Below are positions 3,527 to 61,400 of a DNA stretch of 64,000 nt, piece by piece. Position numbers and translations under genes: made by a program. Numbering within the stretch: the stretch's first letter is position 1; each line of letters opens with the position of its first letter. The notes under the pieces are model-generated. The model was given only the letters and a program-made list of their open reading frames with translations, had not been told where the DNA came from and did not search any database. The DNA is from Branchiostoma floridae. Its lineage: Eukaryota; Chordata; Leptocardii; Amphioxiformes; Branchiostomatidae. Where the stretch lies: the NCBI RefSeq assembly GCF_000003815.2, contig NC_049992.1, forward strand, positions 10,045,407 to 10,109,406. Direction: 5' to 3'.

Positions 3527-4904
3527 CAGAAATCCATGGTGGGTTACAAGATAATGTTAACAACCTACTCTGTCTCGCAACTTCCCTGAAAATTCTCTCC
3601 AAGAAAGTCAAGTTTGTGCACACAGATTAAATAGCAATGACCCTGATCTTTTCTTAAGGTCTTAATGACCTTGCTACTATAGAGACAGGCATGTTAGTAT
3701 AACGTACCAGGATGTGTAGTACACAAAGGTACTTAGACACTTGCATTGTACAAGAAAATGATGGCTGTGGAATAAATACATTCAAAGTCAAACTGCATTT
3801 TAAGGAAACACCATAATCATTATACAGTGTACTATTTCAAAATGATATGATGATAACTTTAGGGCTAGTCAGTAAGAGGAGAGACCACAAGGACATACAA
3901 ATATAATATGATAAGTGAATTACTCTGTATACAGAGATTGTCCAAGTTATTCATATTCTAAACACAACATTTGATAACTGACGATTTTGGCCTACTAGCA
4001 TTACAGATTACCTGGGTCCCATTCTTTTTAGTTTACCAGGTTTCCCATTCTCATTCCCACACAAAATAAACTAGGATGACACCCAGGCTATATTACAGAT
4101 CTTTTCTGTATACGTGTACAAGTATACAAAGCATATAGATTTTCAGCTTGGAGAAAGAGAAATTCCTCCTAAACAGATGCTCTTATGTTAAAGCATTGGT
4201 TTTCTAAGTTGGTACTTTGCACAATTTTTGCTGATGCCAAAGGCAGGACATGTACTTATTTACTGTTATTGTAAATGTCACTGGATAGAGAAAAAATCTA
4301 GTGTATGGTTGGGTATCAAGAACTATATGGAATTCAGGTACGATCATTATCACTCAGAAATATAGACAACTTCTCAAGTATCTATGGAATAAGCAACCAC
4401 CTAGTACCAACATCAGATGCTAACTGTACAAATATATGATCACATATCTGTAACAATTATTGTGGAATGATCAAGATTTATCAATTCAACTAAAATTTAC
4501 ATCCAGTATTTGCCTTGGTTTACATAACACAACACAGAATACTATGTGTCCATACAAATTTGATCAACCTTATATAGTTGGAAATTTATAACATCAATAA
4601 TATGTACACATAAGAGCCTGCTATGAAGCTATATGCCTAAATTTCTTTTCATTTTTTTCCTTTGTTTTACTGTGAAAAAAAAATTGCAAATGTGTATATT
4701 TGTTTACATGTGAATCACAAAATATTCCACAAAACATAACACCAACCTGGACAAAGAAATCCAGGAAAGAAATATCATCATAATTTCTTGAGCAACGTCT
4801 ATTCTAAAAGTAAAACAAAACTGATAACAAAACCACCAATGCATCAACCGTTATGCATGGGTGTTTACAATCTAGAATGTTTACATCTTGTCACCGTGGC
4901 AACC
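3527..4904 (-). other. Putative M6PR 3' UTR
   Basis: About 1.4 kb of AT-rich sequence follows the M6PR stop on the minus strand with no competing gene. If AATAAA at 3012-3007 is the poly(A) signal, the 3' UTR is about 1.9 kb and contains the 9-bp-TSD element. Extent is inferred. Confidence 0.35.
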
Positions 4905-10641: not shown

Positions 10642-11767
10642 ATGGCGTCAGAAGCAGTAAAGGTAATTGTTCGGTGTCGGCCGCTTAACGAACGAGAGAA
10701 GAACTTGAACTGCGGCGTTGTGATCAAGATGGATGGAGGGATCCAGTGCGGCATCATCAAGCCTGACAGGCAGGACGAACCGCCAAAACTCTTCACCTTC
10801 GACGGTTCCTACGACATGGTGTCAACAACCGAGAAAATCTACGACGATGTGGCTTATCCTTTGGTTGAGAGTGTGGTGGAGGGATACAACGGAACGGTGT
10901 TTGCATATGGCCAAACGGGATGTGGCAAATCCTTCACTATGCAAGGTATTGAGGAGCCACCCACTCAAAGGGGCATCATCCCCAGAGCATTTGAACACAT
11001 CTTTGAAAGCATCGCTGTAGCAGAGGACACGAAATATCTCGTACATGCCTCATACTTGGAAATTTACAACGAGGAAATCCGCGATTTGCTCGGAAAGGAC
11101 CACAAGCAGAAGCTGGAGTTAAAAGAGCACCCGGATCGCGGAGTGTATGTTAAGGAGTTGTCGAAGCACTCTGTTCATAACGTTCCAGAGTGCGAAAGGA
11201 TCATGGAGATGGGGTGGAAGAATCGATCGGTCGGCGCGACCCTCATGAACGCTGACTCCTCGCGCTCCCACTCTATCTTCACGATCTTTCTTGAGATGTG
11301 TTCTACGGACAAGGAAGGTGAGACGCATTTGCGTGCGGGGAAACTGAATCTCGTGGACTTGGCGGGAAGTGAGCGACAGGCAAAAACGGGTGCAACGGGT
11401 GATCGACTGAAGGAAGCTACCAAAATCAACCTCTCGCTTTCTGCACTCGGTAACGTCATATCAGCGCTCGTAGACGGAAAATCCAAACACATTCCGTACC
11501 GTGACTCCAAACTCACGCGACTGCTGCAGGATTCCCTTGGCGGGAATACCAAGACGCTTATGATAGCATGTCTGTCTCCTGCGGACAATAACTACGACGA
11601 AACCTTGAGTACGCTAAGATACGCAAACCGTGCAAAGAACATCAAGAATAAGCCGAGAATCAATGAAGATCCCAAAGATGCTCTTCTCAGAGAATACCAA
11701 GAGGAGATTCAGCGGCTGAAGGCCATGTTGGCAGCCAAAGGTATCACAGCTGGCCAGCCAGGACCAG
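10642..11767 (+). CDS. KIF17: KIF17 exon 1 (motor domain and neck)
   Basis: Starts at ATG 10642 ([14 protein letters not shown], the usual KIF17 start) and carries the whole motor domain in one 1126-bp exon, ending CCAG before GTAACT; phase 1. Confidence 0.96.
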
Positions 11768-43400: not shown

Positions 43401-46400
43401 AACTGGCATGGGAGGATCTACATCTAAGTAAGAAAGTATGGCCCAAAACACCTGTCTTCTAGCACTTTTTTGCATCAGTCCTACATGACACATTTTGCAT
43501 GAGAAACCAGGACTCTACTACCAGCAGGTAGATGAATTGGCAACAAAGAATACATAAAGACTGTATCACCTAGCCTAGGTACATTTGCCAAGCAACCATG
43601 GTCCACTGTAATATACCATCAAAGACATACTTTTGTGTTGAAAGTCAAGAGTTTGGGACCTGTTTCATGGAAACATTTTGTTTTCTGGTAATACTAGTAA
43701 TAATAAAAAACTTACTATGCAATGTACATGTAGATGAGTAATGCACAATGTTTCAGACTAGGTCCTTTTGGGCTTGAATAACATCACAGTCTTTTTTCTT
43801 TCACTGTCTCTGCCTGTCTGATGGTTGCTACATGTACATAAGTTGTTGTTCAAAAACTGCTACTGGTACTTTGTAATGATTTAAGTTTTTTTTTTTCTTT
43901 GAAATGGTTTTAGTTCAGCCAGTATGAGATATCTTGAGATGGCACTCAACAATTATGTTAGTCAAGGTGCTTCCAAATGTTCTGCTTTTTGGTGTCAACA
44001 AAAAGAAGCTATTGTAAGGTTGACTTTGTTTCCACCACCCACCCAGAGCAGTGCCCTACTCTATCTGTTAACACCATGAGCTGTCACCAGGGTGGAATGG
44101 GAGCAATGATCAGTTATAAGGCACACTAACCCACAGGAAGGGGACTCCCCTAGGATACATCTGGAAAATGGAGAACATTTTTGTTAGCCCAACTTTTCAG
44201 CATGCAGGTGTCTTGGATGTAAACCTTGGACTCTCTTGGAACAAGAATTCTGTTATTTGGAGAGGTACCACCTCAAGATATACATTTTGGCAGGCAACAG
44301 TGATGGGGACTGCAAACAACTTCACCACTATTGTGTCCACTGATATCAAATATCACCCAAGGCATACATTTAACAGTACTAGACACTGTTACTTCCTGTG
44401 ATCAACATGATGTAAGGCTAACTCCACCAGATATTCCGTAATATTCCCATCAATCATACTCATACTAGAAAATATACTGATACAGGCGTACAGGAAAAAT
44501 ATGAAAAATTATACGCACCACTGTGTTGCTAAAGTCTGAACTACGCTATGTGTTTATATGTACCACCCACCTTCAGGTCTATGTTCTGTGCCCATTTGAT
44601 GAGCCTCTGATTGGTCCATACCAGAGGGTCACAGTCAATGTCTTCACACTGCAACCGCCTTTCATGAAGAGCCTGCATTTACAGGAAAAAAAACCAACAG
44701 TTAGAGCTATCTGTTGCCACTTTAACTACATGTAATTATGCAACAATGGTTTGGGACTAAATTCATGAGTCATTGACAGAAAAATGCAACTGTTAAGAGC
44801 TATCTGTTGCCACATCAACTACATGTAACTTTGCATCATGGCTTTGGACTAAATTCACTGACACTTTTTCTTAACACTTTTGTCATTTCACAACTCAATA
44901 ATGTAGTCAATCATACAAGTTTCATGAAGAGCCTACATTTAAAGAAAAGAACTGTAAAGAGCTATCTGTTGCCACTTCAACTACATGTAACTAAGTTTGT
45001 AACACTAACACTAAATGTACTAAGACTTATTGAACTACTTAAACTGTAATATCCAACACAAAAAATGAACTCACCCAAATTTTCATTGAGACTTGTCCTT
45101 GAGTACTGACACTTGTTCTTTACACTTTTGCCATTGCAAAACTCTACATAGTTACACAAGTCACAGTCCAGGAATCTGCTGAGCTTACCTCCTTGTCAAA
45201 CTTGACCCTCCGCAGGAAGTCGATGCCGTGCAGCAGCGACACCTGGTGGATTTTCCTGGAAATGCTCAGGTACTTCTCCAGGTCCTTGCGGGTCAGTGTG
45301 GCCAGCACACGCCCGTCCACCAGGAGAGACTCGACGCCGGGCGGTACTGAGGGAGGCCCAGGTCCGTGAGCCAGGTCCGCGACACCCAGCGGTGGTCCAT
45401 CTGTGAGGCTTTACTGTACTTACTGTAACACAGGGTGAAGCACAAGATACATCAATGTAGGTTAGACATCAAGGTAATAAGATACGCCAAAAAGTAGTTA
45501 CTCAAGCAACTGGATATGGTTTGGAAACGGTCAGGCGTTTCAACTACTATCCAGTAGTGACACTGACAAAAACTACTGGATAGTAGTTGAAACGTCTGAC
45601 CGTTTCCAAAACCATATCCAGATGCTTGTCATAATGAGTAATTACTTTTTGCCATAAAGCACACATGATATTAACAGAACAAGTAGTCAGCTTTGATAGT
45701 TGTCATGCACCTGTTGCAACCTATGGGACATGCAATATGGCTGAACTAGCTTTCCTAACATAAGTTAGGCCCATCCTTTAAAAATCCTCCTCTGTAGTTA
45801 CCATTATAACAGAGTGTACACAAACCAGCAAGCAACAAGTTAAATGTCAAAGTTTGAGCCCTGTTGTACAACCTAAGCTTTAAAAACAATGACATGATTA
45901 TAAATGAAGCAACTACACAATGACAGACAGTCATAATCAACATAAAGCATGATACATGTCATTATGAATCTGCTGCAGATGACTTCATCCTGGCAAGAAA
46001 ATGGTTAATGGGTGTGACAAAGATGTGCGTCATGCTAAGTTAGATATGCAGGGCATAGCTGTGAGTCTGTGACAAGTCATTTGATGTAACGCTAGTTCAC
46101 CTTTATCCATTGGGTAACCTATATCCATTGCTTTTAAAAACAGGGTATTCGGAGATATATCTTATATAATTTGCGATATTTTCAGGATGTTGCAGTTTAA
46201 AACTACCACCCTTTGACCTGATGTGCCTAAGTACCCTGTTTTTGATAAGCAATGGATATAGGTTACCCAACGGATAAAGGTGAACTACCCCCGGTAGCAT
46301 TACATGTACAGAATGTATATACACGTAACAAGCAATTGTTGTATGCCTGAAATGCTGAGGTGTTATGCAGAAGGGTAATTGTACCAGTGTTTACCAATAC

Positions 46401-49400
46401 AGAAATGATAAATCAGTTCTGATTATCTTACATGACACATAGTTCAACTGGGAGAGAGAGCAGAGTGATAACTGCTATATAGTATAAAGAAATCGGTTCA
46501 AACAACAGTCATGGATGCACAACAAAGTTATCAATACGAAGATTGGAACATGAAGATGTTCTTAAGTGGTCTTGCATGATATTCTGGAGCTGAATGGAAG
46601 ACAAGGCACACATATATACATGTACACACACTGGTTCACAACAGAGCTGACCAAACAGTATTAACTAGTAGGTGCACTTACTCCAGAACATGCCTCCCTA
46701 TGCAAGCCTCTCTAAGGTAAGCAGTAAGTAGTGAAGACAGACAAAAGTAAGCATTGTGATTAGGAAATGGAAACACAGATTAGACATACCTAGTTAGCAC
46801 ACCATGAAGACATACACATTCTACTATATATATTAACAGCTTTCAATAGTATATGCCATGCACATTTGCCATACACAGGTAAAAAAGAGTACAATCTAAA
46901 GAGGATTGTACCTTTGGCAATAAAAGTAGTCAAATTGATGATATCAGATCATACTTGAAATATCAATACAAGTGAAAAGTCACATGTAGTAATGATAAGA
47001 TAAAGCAGAGTACTACAGCGTGGCTGATGGATTTCTTTCAACATAAGATGTACATTGTATAATCATATGAAATATATATATATGCCCTTTTAATAGCTGC
47101 ATAGCTGTAATAAAAAGCATGCATTATAGAAGGTAGACATACTGTCTTCTAACTGAGTAAAGTCTTGGTGCAGAATGTCTGAAGAGGTTAACACATGGGA
47201 TGAGGACAGGCCTGAGATATCCTGTTGTCTGCAGGTTGGACCAACCTTTCCCTTTGAACTACTCCAAGGTACCAGACCACTCACAGAACAGTGTAGATCA
47301 AATAGTAGTCAGTGACACTAAAAGAATCACATTCAGATTTGTCCAGGAATTTACAGATCAGGTCTATCAAATTATTCTTTGTTTGTTTGTTTGTTTGTTT
47401 GTTTGTTTTCAAACAACTTCCTACAGGGCAACCAGTACCGAAGATACAATGTAATATGAACTTTCAGCACTAAAATACTTTGAAAAATAGCAAGTTTCCT
47501 TTAAGTTAGCAAATCTGATAAGTTTGAGACAGGGTCTAGTTAGAACTTTTTTCATCATCTTTTTAAAACCATTAATACCAGTGACATGCCAAAAAATCTG
47601 AAAACAAAGAAAAAGATTGCAGAGCTCTTTCAGTATTCAAAGTTTGTATCCTAAAGACTGTGGTCCGGTGTATGGAGACAGTTGAAAAGGCAAGGTTACA
47701 CGTAGTTGACTTACTGCTGGATCTCGGGTTGCCTGTGAAACATGCGATACAGGAGACCCCTCCTCATCGGCACAGTAGCGTACCTTAACCACACAGGTGT
47801 CAGCAGGAGAGAGAAAGTGATACAACCAAAATCAAACTTGTCAACAAAGAAATTACATAGAGGAAAGCCAGTAAAGTCTGACATATCTAAGTGCATCTGT
47901 GCTCAGCATAGACCTGGAGACAAAAGGGTATTCTGGGCTGACATGGGTACAACATAGTTTGTAAACAAGGCAAGGGAAATGAGTTACAGCATTTCATGCA
48001 AGTACTTGACCAAGCTCCAACTGAAAGAGAATGACCACCAATGAATAAGGCAAATAGCTCCAATATGTATAGAGCAAGGAAAAGTCATAAGCAATTTAAT
48101 TTGAGTGCTGATAGGACAGACAATAAGAAAAGCACATGGAGACTAAATGTACAGTTGACCTCAATTCTAACCACTTCAACTGGGTATTCAGACTTAATAC
48201 ATTTGTAGTACTGGTATGTATTTCATTATCATATGACTCAGCAATCATGTTCTAGTGCCTGAGATAAACTAGGTTTAAACAAATTAAAGGACAAGAGACT
48301 AACGTTCATTCTATATAATAGTGAAGCAATGGTGGGCCTTACCTAGCTTCGGGTGTCCTATGTTCCTCTATAGCTAGCCTGAGTTTCCTGCGATGAAGAT
48401 TGTTGTTGATTCCCAGCCCTGACTCAAGTTCATGGTCACTTAGGCCAAGTAGTACCTAATCATTGGAAACAAACATAACAGTTTCAATTAACGTTTGTAA
48501 AGGGGATTTGTGAATAGTACTAAAAATTAAATAAGAAATCGAAGGGACTTTAGACTATTGAGGCATACAAGATGACCACAATGTAACATGCATATCATGC
48601 ACAATGCTCAACTTCTACTTATTTGTTTGCTTCAATTTTCACAGGAATGTCACTAGAATTAGAAGTAATCCAATAAGCCGAATTACAGAGCATACATTTT
48701 GCTTGCATCTGTTAACTGCACAGTGTGACAAAAATGTGCAATAAAGGTCTTCATTCATTCAATAATATTTAGTCATATTAAAGTGCCTGATACATGTAAT
48801 TAAGAGCACACACAACAAAGTGATGTTCCACCATACCTTGCCACTTTTGATGTTCTCTGTACAGTGTTTAGAATACATGGGCATACACATGGTGTACTCC
48901 AGCCAGGCCAGCACGTGGTCGGCCTTCCACTGGGTCATGGGCAGCCTGCGGGTCTCCTCCAGCACCTGCAGCCGGTCTGCAGCCTCCTCCTGGTGCAGAC
49001 TGTGGTGCAGGGTGCCGCGGGTCGGCAGGGTGTAACTACCACTCTGGGTCTCTACTTCTGTGGGGACGGTACATGTACAATGTTATACTATCAATCAACT
49101 GTCTGGTACACAAATCTATATATGATTTCCTAATATACAGGGTGCTGCGTGTGGGCAGGGTGTAACTACCACTCTGGGTCTCTACTTCTGTGGGGACGGC
49201 ACATGAAAGATGGGCATCAGTCTACTGAGTACTGCCAAGCAACTGGTATACACATCTACATGTATGCACAATTTCCTAATATACAGGGTGCCGTGCATGG
49301 GCAGGGTGTAGCTACCACTCTGGGTCTCTACTTCAGTGGGGAGGGTACATGTATAATGGTTATACAGGGTCCCAAGGGTGGGCAGGGTGTAGCTACCACT

Positions 49401-52400
49401 CTGGGTCTCTACTTCTGTGGGGACAGTACATGTACAATGGTTATACAGGGTCCCACGCATGGGCAGGGTGTAGCTACCACTCTGGGTCTCTACTTCTGTG
49501 GGGAGGGTACATGTACAATGGTTATACAGGGTCCCAAGGGTGGGCAGGGTGTAACTACCACTCTGGGTCTCTACTTCTGTGGGGACAGTACATGTACAAT
49601 GGTTATACAGGGTCCCACGCATGGGCAGGGTGTAGCTACCACTCTGGGTCTCTACTTCTGTGGGGAGGGTACATGTACAATGGTTATACAGGGTCCCAAG
49701 GGTGGGCAGGGTGTAACTACCACTCTGGGTCTATACTTCTGTGGGGATAGTATGTGAACAATTTTTCAAACCAAGAACAGTACTTTCAAGAAGTCTTCAT
49801 CTGGTCATTTTGACATGTAAGGGTCTCAGAATGAACCAAGAAAGTTTAAGACAATTATGTATACAACTTATATACATATACCTGCGCATGTACATGTACT
49901 AACCTTCTAACAAGCTTGGGTCTAAAGACTTGCGGTGCTTGTTTCTACCAAACACCTTGGACAGGGACCCAAACTTTTTGGTGCTCTTCTTCTTCTTGGC
50001 TCCCCCTAGGCCACTATCTCTACTGGAGTTGTAGCCGTCTGACTTGGAGTCATCAGGTATATGGACAGGGGAGTATCTCGAGGTGCTGGCAACACTGGGG
50101 GGGTTGGAGGAGATTCCCTCCTCAGACACGGGAGTTTCCTGGAGGTTACACGATGAAGGTGCAGATTCTGAAAAAGAAATGGGATAAGATGTTCAAATTT
50201 CAAAAGAAGGGCCTAGATCATAGTAGATGTTACTAAGTGAAATAAGTGCAATCTTATATGAAATAACTGAGACCAAGTTGAAGATGTCACTTTTAAAGTG
50301 TCAAGGTAAGTGGTAAGTGATGTATAGATTATTTGTCTTCATGTGCATGCTCAGTAAAGTGTACTGGATGTTGCCTCAAAACAATAACCTTGCTCATGCT
50401 TAAATAGCTGTTTGGCTTCCAATTCTCTATCAGTTATAATTTTGGCCTTAGGCCAAGGCCACAGGGAGGATGTAATGTATATCAGCACTAAGACTGAATG
50501 AAGTACCTGATATCGGGGTAGAATGTTGTTGGATGGGTGATTGCGTCACATCCTGGACACTGTCTGACAACGATACTTCTGGTGTGTAGAACTCCACTGA
50601 GGTTGATTGGTGTGATTCGTCCACGCTCTGAGGACTCTGGATCTCTACTGACCCCCTAGGGGTGGCTTCTGCAGGGGTTGGGGTATGCAGCTCCATGGAT
50701 CCCCGGGGGGTGGGGAATTCACCATCCGAGGCGTGTAACTGCAGGTCCATGGAACCTCTTGGCGTCTATCAAAAAGAGAGTTCCGTCATTTCTTAACTAA
50801 GCTGAAAACAGACTAGCAAAATCAGCAAGATCAAGTAGTCTAAGTTTTGTATTTTGTTCTGCATTCAAATGTATAACAAAAGTAAATGTTGCTGTTACAA
50901 TCGCTGATTTATAATTGCGTGAGGTTGGTCAGAGTTATATGAACTATAACATGAGCGGTACTGCATATGCCTGAAGGATTTAGGTCATTCACTTTATACG
51001 TGTACATCAGATTCTGATAAGTTGGTAAACAAGGTACAAGTAAATGCATGCAAATACCATTTACAGCTTTTATGTATAAAGAAATGAAAAACAAATGAAA
51101 AGGAAATGAGCCCATAATTACCAGTGATTCACCAACATGGAGAGATAACTGCACATCCTCAGAGAGGTGGCTGTCTTCAGCAGGGAGTGGACTGGCCTCT
51201 CCCAATGTCTCAGGTCGAGGGGAGGACTCTGCAATACTCAGTCTCTGGTGCTGATGGTTCTGCTCAAGCTGTAATCTGGTCTGGAGAAACAACAAACACA
51301 AAACTCTTAACGTTAGGCAAAATACATATCTACATGTTGTTGCTTTTGACGTACACAAATCACTACTGATTATTTTATCTTTCCATATTCTTTGGTGGTA
51401 ATGGTATACTTCTAGCCAAAATGAGGAATGCTTGACTGTTAAAGATAACTAAAAGTAAGCTGTAAGCAAACATACATGTAAGATATGCTTCCACTGTATT
51501 GTTAAAACCACTGTTTTGAAACTGCTGTTACAATATTTCTTGTAATAAAGGACACACTTCTTTGTCTTTAAAGTTGGTGCAAGAAATGTTTGAAAGCAAT
51601 ACAATGCTATAGCCAATCTAGTTTCTGAATAACTTTTGGATCAATATTAAAGAATTCCTACTTGTGAGAGTTCTGTCTCTAGTTTCTTGATGAGTCCTTC
51701 CTTCTGGTCCAGCTGCTGCCGGAGAAAGACTGACCGCTCTGCGGAGTCCCTGGCCTTCTTAAGGATCTCCCACTTCTCCTTCTCCGAGCCTTCCTTCTCC
51801 AGGATCAGCTGCTTAATACTTTCATCACTTTCCTGGAGGACAGGTGGGTAAAGCAATGTTTTGTTAGTTGTACAGAGATATGCTGATGATCATGCCTGGT
51901 ACCATCACATAAACCAGGGTTACATTTTCAAACAGGCGCCTGGCTAGGAAGCTTGTGGGAACACGAAGTATGATATAAATGATTATTAAACATAAAAAGA
52001 TAAGTCACAAGCATATTTCTTCATATACACTTCTGCTCTATCTTTCCACAAAAAGCCTGGCCAGGCCCTGGTTTGGAATTGTGATACTTGTACAATCTAC
52101 ACCAATGTCCAACTGTTCCACTGATAGTAGCCACGACACATCAGCGTCAAGTTATTCTTGTCAGAAAGAAAGGCATCATAAATTCACGTATTTCCATGAG
52201 AAAAACATCCCACCACCTTTTCTCCACAGGTAATACTGTAAGGTATATAGTAAATATTAAATATACACTCAGGTACATGCTATAAAGCAGTGTTCTAGCC
52301 AGCTTGCATTTTTTTTCTGTCCCCTGGATTTGGAATGGAAATCCTGTCGATCCCCAGAGTACAGAATAGCCAAAATTTTTGTCTGTCCCCAGCTGCAAAA

Positions 52401-58400: not shown

Positions 58401-61400
58401 TCACGAAGGCCATACAATCATGTGTCATACACTTCATGCTTCATTACGAACACTCTCAGACTGATGTAAGGATCAGGTCTTAATTGTTCCATCCATGTGT
58501 GTAAGCTATCATGAAATTTTGATTTGTGTATTCATAGACGAAGACTTGAATAACTCAAAGTTAACACAGAAGGCAATCTGTGAATAATTTGATGGGGTCA
58601 TCTAAGTTTCTGGTAGCAATTTCCTTTCTTCCATACTAGGCTTGCCAAAAGTCTTGGAACCCTTTGAATATTTCACAACCCACTTGGTTGCAGATGGGAG
58701 ACCTCTTCCTCAATGTAGCCAGGGGTCATGAGGTCATGACAATGTCAGAGTTATAGCCAAGGTCATCTTCGGAGGGAACCCTCCACACATAGACAGGATT
58801 TCTTAGGAATGACTACATACACTGCACTTGCACCATTAACTCTATCTCCTGGATTAGAGACTTTTATGTACTACAGACACGGCTTGCGTTTGGCTGTACA
58901 TGTGATAGACTATAATGTTGGGCAGCCAAAATAATCATTCTCCATCATGTATCCCTACAGAGAGAAAACGGTGGAGGAAGTTTCATGGGGGATTATACTG
59001 TTGTTAGTGATCAATGTTACTGCAAACTTTCTTCTCAATTAAGACATACATATTTGTATAAGTACATGATCAGACTACACTAACTGCCGAAACTCTAAGC
59101 CACTGGCTCACACAAACAACAGTACAGAGAGATAAAGAGAGAGGAAAAAAATCTGTAACGTCAATGTCAATGTGGTTATTTTCCGTCCTGCAGCTAAGTT
59201 CAGTTATAAGACCATACTACACTAACTGCCAAGACTGTAAGCCACTGGCTCACACAAACAACAGTACAGAGAGATAAAGAGAGAGGAAAAAAATCTGTAA
59301 CGTAAATGTCAATGTGGTTATTTTCCTTCCTGCAGCTAAGTTCAGTTATATGACACATAAGTACATGATCAGACTACACTAACTGCTAAAACTCTAAGCC
59401 ACTGGCTCACACAAACAACAGCACAGAGAGATAAAGAGAGAGGAAAAAAATCTGTAACGTCATTGCCAATGTAGTTATTTTCCGTCCTGCAGCTAAGTTC
59501 AGTTATAAGACCAGACTACACTAACTGCCGAAACTCTAAGCCACTGGCTCACACAAACAACAGCACAGAGAGATAAAAGGAGAGGGAAAAAGTCTGTAAC
59601 GTCATTGCCAATGTTGTTATTTTCCGTCCTGCAGCTAAGTTTAGTTATAAGTACATGATGAGACTACACTAACTGCCAAAACTCTAAGCTGGCTCACACA
59701 GAGTGATATTCAAGGAAAAGTCTGTACCGTCATTGTCGATGTGGTTATTTTCCGTCCTGCAGCTAAGTTCAGTGAGCCTCTTGTTGGTGTCAGCCAGCTC
59801 TGCACGGAGGGCGTTGACCTCCTGATTGGCTGACTGGATGGACCCGTCAATCCTGGATGCAAGCTGCTTGTTGTCATCAACCATTTTTCTAAACTTCGCC
59901 TTGAAAGGAGAGAAAGATTTCTTCTTGAGAACTGCTGAACTTTCTGAGAAGCTGCAAACAGTCCTCATTAAAAAGTCTGCTATGCAAGTTATCACATGTG
60001 CTTAAGTATTTTAACTTCAGAGGCATCCTCCTCTTAAGGGGGGAAGCTACAAATGTATGTAGTACTATGTAGCCATTTCTGGAGACAAATGGAAATCATT
60101 TTCTGCAACTTCTGGTTTATTTCTTGTTTACAATCCCTACAACTGTATTTCATTACTGTATGCATTTTCAAAAACATAATGCAGTGACGCACAAACCTGA
60201 CTTAAAGTTTGAACAGCTTCTTCAATTAGAATCAACTCTCTTTTGGATGAACACATTAAAAATGATCTGAAACCTTTTTTTTGCAATTCTCCATCAAATA
60301 GAATTAGAAGCTCTGGAAGTTCCTTACCTGTGCATCCACCAGTAATCGGCGCATGAGCGCCATGGAGGCCTTGAGCGTGTCGCGCTCCTTCGGTGACATG
60401 GCGTCCCCCTCTCCATCGCACTCCGAGGACTTGGGGGTGAAGATGAACTGGACAATCTGGTCATTCAGGGTATCAAGTGACTGGATTGCTGTAGGAAAGC
60501 AGAGACCACATATTGTAAGTTCGTGAACATGCATTGATGAACATCTGTGACTGATTTTAACATTAATTGTACTCCTGTAAACTCCTGCAAAAAGAACACC
60601 TCCTTTCACCAACTGCTCTTAACTCAACTGCAGTCACAATATCATCATCATCCACTGTAACAAGTATTCATGTCACCAAATACAACCTTAGATTTACAGT
60701 CAACAATTCATTATGGCTTTATGTAGAGTTTAAGTTCTAACTCACTACCAAGGTCAATTGTACAAATACACACGAATATTACTGGCTTAAGGAGGAAGTG
60801 TTTCCAATGAAACCTGACTATTGGCCTTAAATATATCATTCATAAATCCACGAGGACTGTCGCATGCAAGAGCTCTTGAAGCAATTTAAACCAGGATGTT
60901 TACCTCTCTTAACACTGTAAATGGCATACAAAAGTCAAGATCATGCACTTGGTACAAAACCTACAGAACCTTTACATACCTGTAACCACAACAAACACCA
61001 ATCATCTACATCATTATGGGGCCAATTTAGAAAGGGCTTTGTACATGTATGTTTAAACAATACAAAGCCGTAGAACGTAATAGCTATGCACAATGAAGCA
61101 AAGTCGTGAAGCTTGACAAGGCAAACAGACTTAAAATGAACACTAACCATCTTCATCGTGCTTTAAATCCTTCCTTTTTCCACTCATCTTTCACCAGAAG
61201 CAATATTCACACTTGTTCAGCAAGCAGCATGTTTTACACCACAAGAAACAAACTAGTAAGGACTCTTGTTGGACCACAAAAACCTCAGACACAGTTCGCA
61301 CAGAGGCAGGCTGCACAGCGCTAGTTGGTTCCCACCAGTTATAACTGGCTGTGTACAAATGCAGATGGTGACAATTGCACTGCCTATTTTCTATAATGTC

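Follow-up and report, generated by a model that had tools for sequence, protein, structure and literature searches.

The kazrin-like gene and its arrays

The window, a stretch of 64,000 nucleotides of Branchiostoma floridae DNA, carries on its minus strand a gene of which a part was assembled from ten exons; their positions were set by splice sites and reading frame, and joined together they give a single open frame of 622 residues. The protein read from the joined frame matches the Pfam families SAM_1 (E 4.1e-6) and SAM_2 (E 1.3e-4), and the best solved-structure match of its SAM1 part is liprin-alpha-2 (3tad, E 4.4e-18). The gene encodes a coiled-coil-and-SAM protein that we take to be the orthologue of kazrin, a name borrowed from the vertebrate protein. 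Three adjoining minus-strand features concern us most, namely an exon that ends in ...SLDPSLLE in phase 1 (49904..50167; supported by its splice sites and the open joined frame), an intron of 846 bp (49058..49903) and the SAM1 exon with which the SAM domain starts (48837..49057). In the next SAM-like exon, near window position 45320 (about 45425-45188, minus), the frame seems to switch midway, for which an allele, an assembly error or a wrong exon model are options.

Within the 846-bp intron the edge of the SAM1 exon is repeated in seven additional copies, the number given in a preliminary description of this DNA. Numbered outwards from the real exon, which starts at 49057, their exon-like parts lie on the minus strand at 49138..49187 (copy 1), 49284..49333 (copy 2), 49365..49414 (copy 3), 49446..49495 (copy 4), 49527..49576 (copy 5), 49608..49657 (copy 6) and 49689..49738 (copy 7), the higher coordinate being in each case the first exon-like base. 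From the farthest copy inwards, the five successive steps of 81 bp described earlier are indeed present, followed by one of 146 bp and a last one of 130 bp to the real exon, and the likeness to the real edge extends in each copy over 50 exon bases, shorter than the roughly 60 bp first reported, and 18-31 intron bases. It had also been stated that every copy keeps both the acceptor CCCACAG and the codons for EVETQSGSYTLP, which proved too sweeping on both counts. The acceptor is kept in copy 1 and in copies 3 to 7 and is lost in copy 2, since its CCCACTG has no AG, while EVETQSGSYTLP is likewise kept in six of the seven, being cut short in copy 7 by the stop at its third codon (EV-stop) that had been correctly read there.

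Tandem Repeats Finder (TRF) fits the array better with a unit of 162 bp than with one of 81 bp (97% matches and a score of 890, against 91% and 796), and alternate copies have variants in common (CACCCTTGG vs CATGCGTGG), both of which support the growth as a 162-bp dimer that had been proposed. These TRF scores also establish that the array is not of chance origin, and a DNA search of the assembly placed it at a single site, the one candidate that the first look of that search gave. The description of an exon edge amplified together with its acceptor into a minisatellite holds. The remark that 81 bp make 27 codons carries no weight: by our arithmetic, a random unit of that length would lack a stop in any one frame in roughly one case out of four, and on the plus strand, too, the array can be read through in two frames.

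The same gene contains a second array of this kind, at a donor. A scan of 28 provisional edges, from 14 putative exons, along the window's minus strand brought up copies of two, the SAM1 acceptor and the donor of the coding exon at 59728..59899 (minus strand). The 3′ edge of the latter seeds four donor-edge copies (59645-59520, 59503-59378, 59346-59221 and 59204-59079) within 59057..59700 on the same strand, with a unit that comprises the last 46 nt of the exon, the donor position and the following intron. At the position of the donor GT all four copies read TT, and a GT overlaps it one base upstream.

Amphioxus mirages in print and elsewhere in the genome

In those parts of the literature available to us, amphioxus mirages are minisatellite-like tandem duplications of exon/intron boundaries (PMC3087553, PMC3902484). 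The globin gene BflGb6 has units of 150-160 bp that span an intron end and the start of exon 2, six in one haplotype and three in another, and BflGb9 has a 157 bp unit at the 3′ boundary of exon 2; the same source recounts earlier Adh3 mirages with somatic instability (excerpts of PMC3087553), and mirages in PGBD5 and troponin C are given in the accessible text of PMC3902484. The kazrin-like array belongs to this already described class: TRF recovers a minisatellite-like tandem repeat (81/162-bp), the repeat unit crosses the exon/intron boundary of an adjoining coding exon that is backed by the ten-exon frame and the SAM domain, and AG is present in many copies (6/7), not all, as AG/GT is in the published cases. 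It shares with BflGb6 the layout of 3′ intron end plus 5′ exon. Unlike the mirages in the portions of print just cited, it lies in another gene, has an 81-bp unit arranged as a 162-bp dimer in seven extra copies, and is accompanied by a second mirage, at a donor.

Among the known systems that resemble the array, the intron gain in the potato RdRp gene, in so far as the consulted part of its report describes it, is also a tandem duplication that copied splice signals (PMC4974935), whereas the kazrin-like intron pre-existed and no new intron is seen. Accessible text on amphioxus minisatellites, mirages and kazrin yielded no mention of a kazrin mirage, and paper searches on kazrin and splicing and on acceptors in minisatellites brought up nothing relevant.

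Further mirages were found outside the kazrin-like gene. Its neighbour, an Exo84 gene (Exo84_C E 3e-50), has two, an acceptor mirage (~100 bp) with four extra copies and a donor edge duplicated in a single copy (L005:5312-5804 and 3947-4173), and a GOST-family gene (E 4.7e-7), presumably GPR107-like, has an acceptor mirage with two extra copies of an 86-bp unit (L021:4113-4358). Three edges are thus copied among the ten coding pieces scanned in these two genes, which were noticed because TRF showed arrays in them, the GOST gene within a set of 20 evenly spaced stretches. Pfam found no family in single pieces (three, then two) and a search of two neighbour exons against PDB sequences gave no match, while Pfam on joined pieces returned SAM, Exo84_C and GOST. 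Among the TRF arrays of the 20 stretches one, that at L021:4113, was judged a mirage. An open-frame look at nine others (L009:1817, four in L022, and those in L023, L017:6100, L011 and L019) gave nothing clear, nor did one at L002:1253, outside the 20-stretch set; the remaining arrays were viewed in the TRF table only.

A sample of exons chosen blind to arrays comprised nine globin matches and, out of 21 AAA matches, the eight best, each with 1.5 kb on either side. A copied edge was present in five of these 17 exons (L030, L034, L036, L037 and L042) and 12 were without; L033, a globin whose donor region is partly repeated, is doubtful and is not among the five. With the globins set aside, the count is three of these eight best AAA matches. 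The globin locus L034 has three acceptor copies about 151-158 bp apart and the globin locus L030 one donor copy 157 bp on, which serve as a positive control because side and unit length agree with those published for BflGb6 and BflGb9, the genes that these loci probably represent. In L037 (1762-1988), an AAA gene that we assume to be proteasome ATPase-like, three extra donor copies follow in a 55-56-bp unit with GTAAGG in each. Small as the sample is, its 5/17 exons suggest that the copying of exon edges may be frequent in the genome.

Splice dinucleotides and the background of tandem copies

The splice dinucleotides of the copies were tallied at eight edges, scoring covered positions only, with L030 and L034 outside the count. 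AG survives in 13 of the 14 acceptor copies (kazrin 6/7, Exo84 4/4, GOST 2/2, L036 1/1) and GT in four of nine donor copies (kazrin 0/4, Exo84 0/1, L037 3/3, L042 1/1), to which the donor copy of L030, judged by eye, adds another with GT kept. Such retention needs no selection, because copies at the scored edges are about 75-96% alike and many descend from one ancestor per array, and there is no sign of special preservation of AG/GT in the copies.

Attraction of duplications to splice sites was viewed against the genome at large. Of 3499 windows in 20 evenly spaced 10-kb stretches, 311 are copied locally in tandem (a count in which L014 gave no usable window and L019, being masked, only 20); beside the 17 matches the corresponding figure is 41 of 794 flank windows, and many of these 41 belong to mirage-holding loci. 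On the side of the edges, five of 34 are copied, these being nominal edges (17 matches, two sides each) at which true exon ends are not individually fixed and some of which perhaps have no nearby intron, as in L035 with its 500 aa frame. Set beside each other, figures that differ in measure and are clustered would allow at most a modest excess of copied edges, and since local tandem repeats are common in the genome, no particular preference for splice sites is demonstrated. It may be that mirages are no more than the form which widespread local tandem duplication takes at exon ends.

Origin of the array and fate of its copies

With a probability of roughly 0.9, the array is a mirage, a neutral or nearly neutral minisatellite that arose by local duplication, shortening and dimer growth and whose copies are mostly ignored in splicing. 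The process would have started with a single local tandem duplication of ~130 bp that took in the intron's 3′ end together with the 5′ edge of the SAM1 exon. A deletion between GTATA repeats probably later reduced the unit to 81 bp; in our own comparison of units the 81-bp form resembles the 130-bp form minus the segment between two GTATA stretches. Further growth may have proceeded mainly as the 162-bp dimer, by slippage or unequal exchange, and the copies would have been tolerated as intron sequence since one end still carried the real exon edge undamaged. Splicing most likely still takes place at the real acceptor, which has a donor 221 nt downstream, an arrangement that under exon definition would leave the copies mostly ignored; occasional use of a copy acceptor would lead to a message with a premature stop.

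That last step follows from the frames. Joined in frame to the upstream exon, all seven copies meet a premature stop: copy 7 at its third codon, the five copies after it (among them copy 2, which has no AG) after 50 to 158 residues at 49182 in the intron, and copy 1 after 50 residues at 49036. The earlier statement that reading on from the copies meets a stop is borne out, for copy 1 with a stop that falls within the real exon. All seven are thus predicted to be unproductive unless spliced again.

The rival with most to be said for it takes these stops as the point of the array. On this account, intact copy acceptors would vie with the real site, and the number of copies would set the share of messages that end early, whether these undergo nonsense-mediated decay or yield a SAM-less kazrin. 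Six of the seven copies keep AG, the pyrimidine share before the AG is 0.65-0.75 in the copies against 0.65 at the real site, and the stop in each copy would supply the early end; human kazrin is moreover described, in the part of the paper at hand, as having at least seven isoforms, with kazrin C the shortest core and others bearing N- or C-terminal extensions (PMC10181827). Several points tell against it. One acceptor in seven is dead and the others keep AG about as often as divergence alone would leave. The intron also lacks poly(A) signals, with AATAAA, ATTAAA, AGTAAA and TATAAA all absent from its 846 bp, and a SAM-less isoform made by intronic polyadenylation was rejected on this finding (0/4 hexamers). 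Two branch-point-like yTnAy motifs precede the real site (-34 and -38), two precede copy 1 (CTGAT at -30, and one at -17) and one precedes copy 7 (-17), with none within 70 nt upstream of the five other copies, which are of the 81-bp type; this difference is a hint only, since the motif is short and the relaxed form TNAY occurs upstream of all eight sites. For published mirages, RT-PCR results suggest that regular splicing is left undisturbed (as given in the excerpted PMC3087553), and undisturbed splicing with this kind of array is likewise reported in PMC3902484 (in part). Taken together, decoy splicing by the copy acceptors is unlikely, and on what the DNA predicts we regard a tunable switch as very improbable. 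It would surprise us equally if the wider form of the idea were right, in which mirages touch a sizeable share of exon edges and the six intact acceptors of the kazrin-like array act as a copy-number-dependent sink into SAM-less or decayed messages; were it so, individuals of different copy number would differ in full-length kazrin.

A reading of the copies as small alternative or mutually exclusive exons is scarcely credible. Tandem exon duplication and mutually exclusive exons do place repeated exon sequence within an intron, as is seen here, and the copies begin like exons (AG in 6/7) and are followed directly by GTATAA or GTATAT. Unlike those exons, however, they end after 50 bp with no frame-keeping donor: the following GT gives a 49-nt exon that is out of frame, its context is by eye far from the donor consensus, and the remainder of the exon is missing, so that a 50-bp exon-like part is all that is found in place of a whole exon with both splice sites in compatible phase. 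The mini-exon reading was rejected because the frame is not kept. An assembly artefact, to which one globin mirage that appeared aberrantly assembled in an earlier genome draft might point (PMC3087553, in part), is just as hard to believe, given that the copies have distinct variants and differing spacings and that the assembly contains globin loci whose copied edges match the published unit lengths.

The neutral mirage also has to accommodate an uneven spread of variation. Across the eight sequences, three of the first 36 exon bases are variable columns against nine of the last 24 intron bases (Fisher p 0.009), and against 15 of 37 when exon bases 37-49 are added to the latter (p 0.002). The lower variation might point to constraint acting on the exon-like part. 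We do not take it as selection, because the copies are non-independent, because five of the nine variable intron columns differ only in copies 7 and 1 (our count) and because exon bases 37-49 contain most of the CpGs (our reading); constraint, which would rest on the comparison of 3/36 with 9/24 in non-independent copies, is therefore not claimed.

Two mirages in one gene add to the few that we found in the accessible print, those of Adh3, two globins, troponin C and PGBD5. Should mirages be common, lancelets would provide a wealth of natural experiments on spliceosomal choice of the true site among near-identical neighbours, and on whether duplicated boundaries give rise to new introns, a proposal made by the globin paper in the part we draw on (PMC3087553). 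Their possible prevalence is the more useful lead, rather than the decoy idea, which is unsupported.

Two minor observations concern kinesin sequences. On the plus strand of the window, positions 10672-11643 hold a full-length kinesin motor domain match in a single open frame (E 2.9e-121, 387-aa frame), perhaps an intronless copy. At G000:C2:31967610-31968130, three kinesin matches stand in a row about 150 bp apart, and the two short ones start at the family position of the longer one, which is perhaps a further acceptor mirage.
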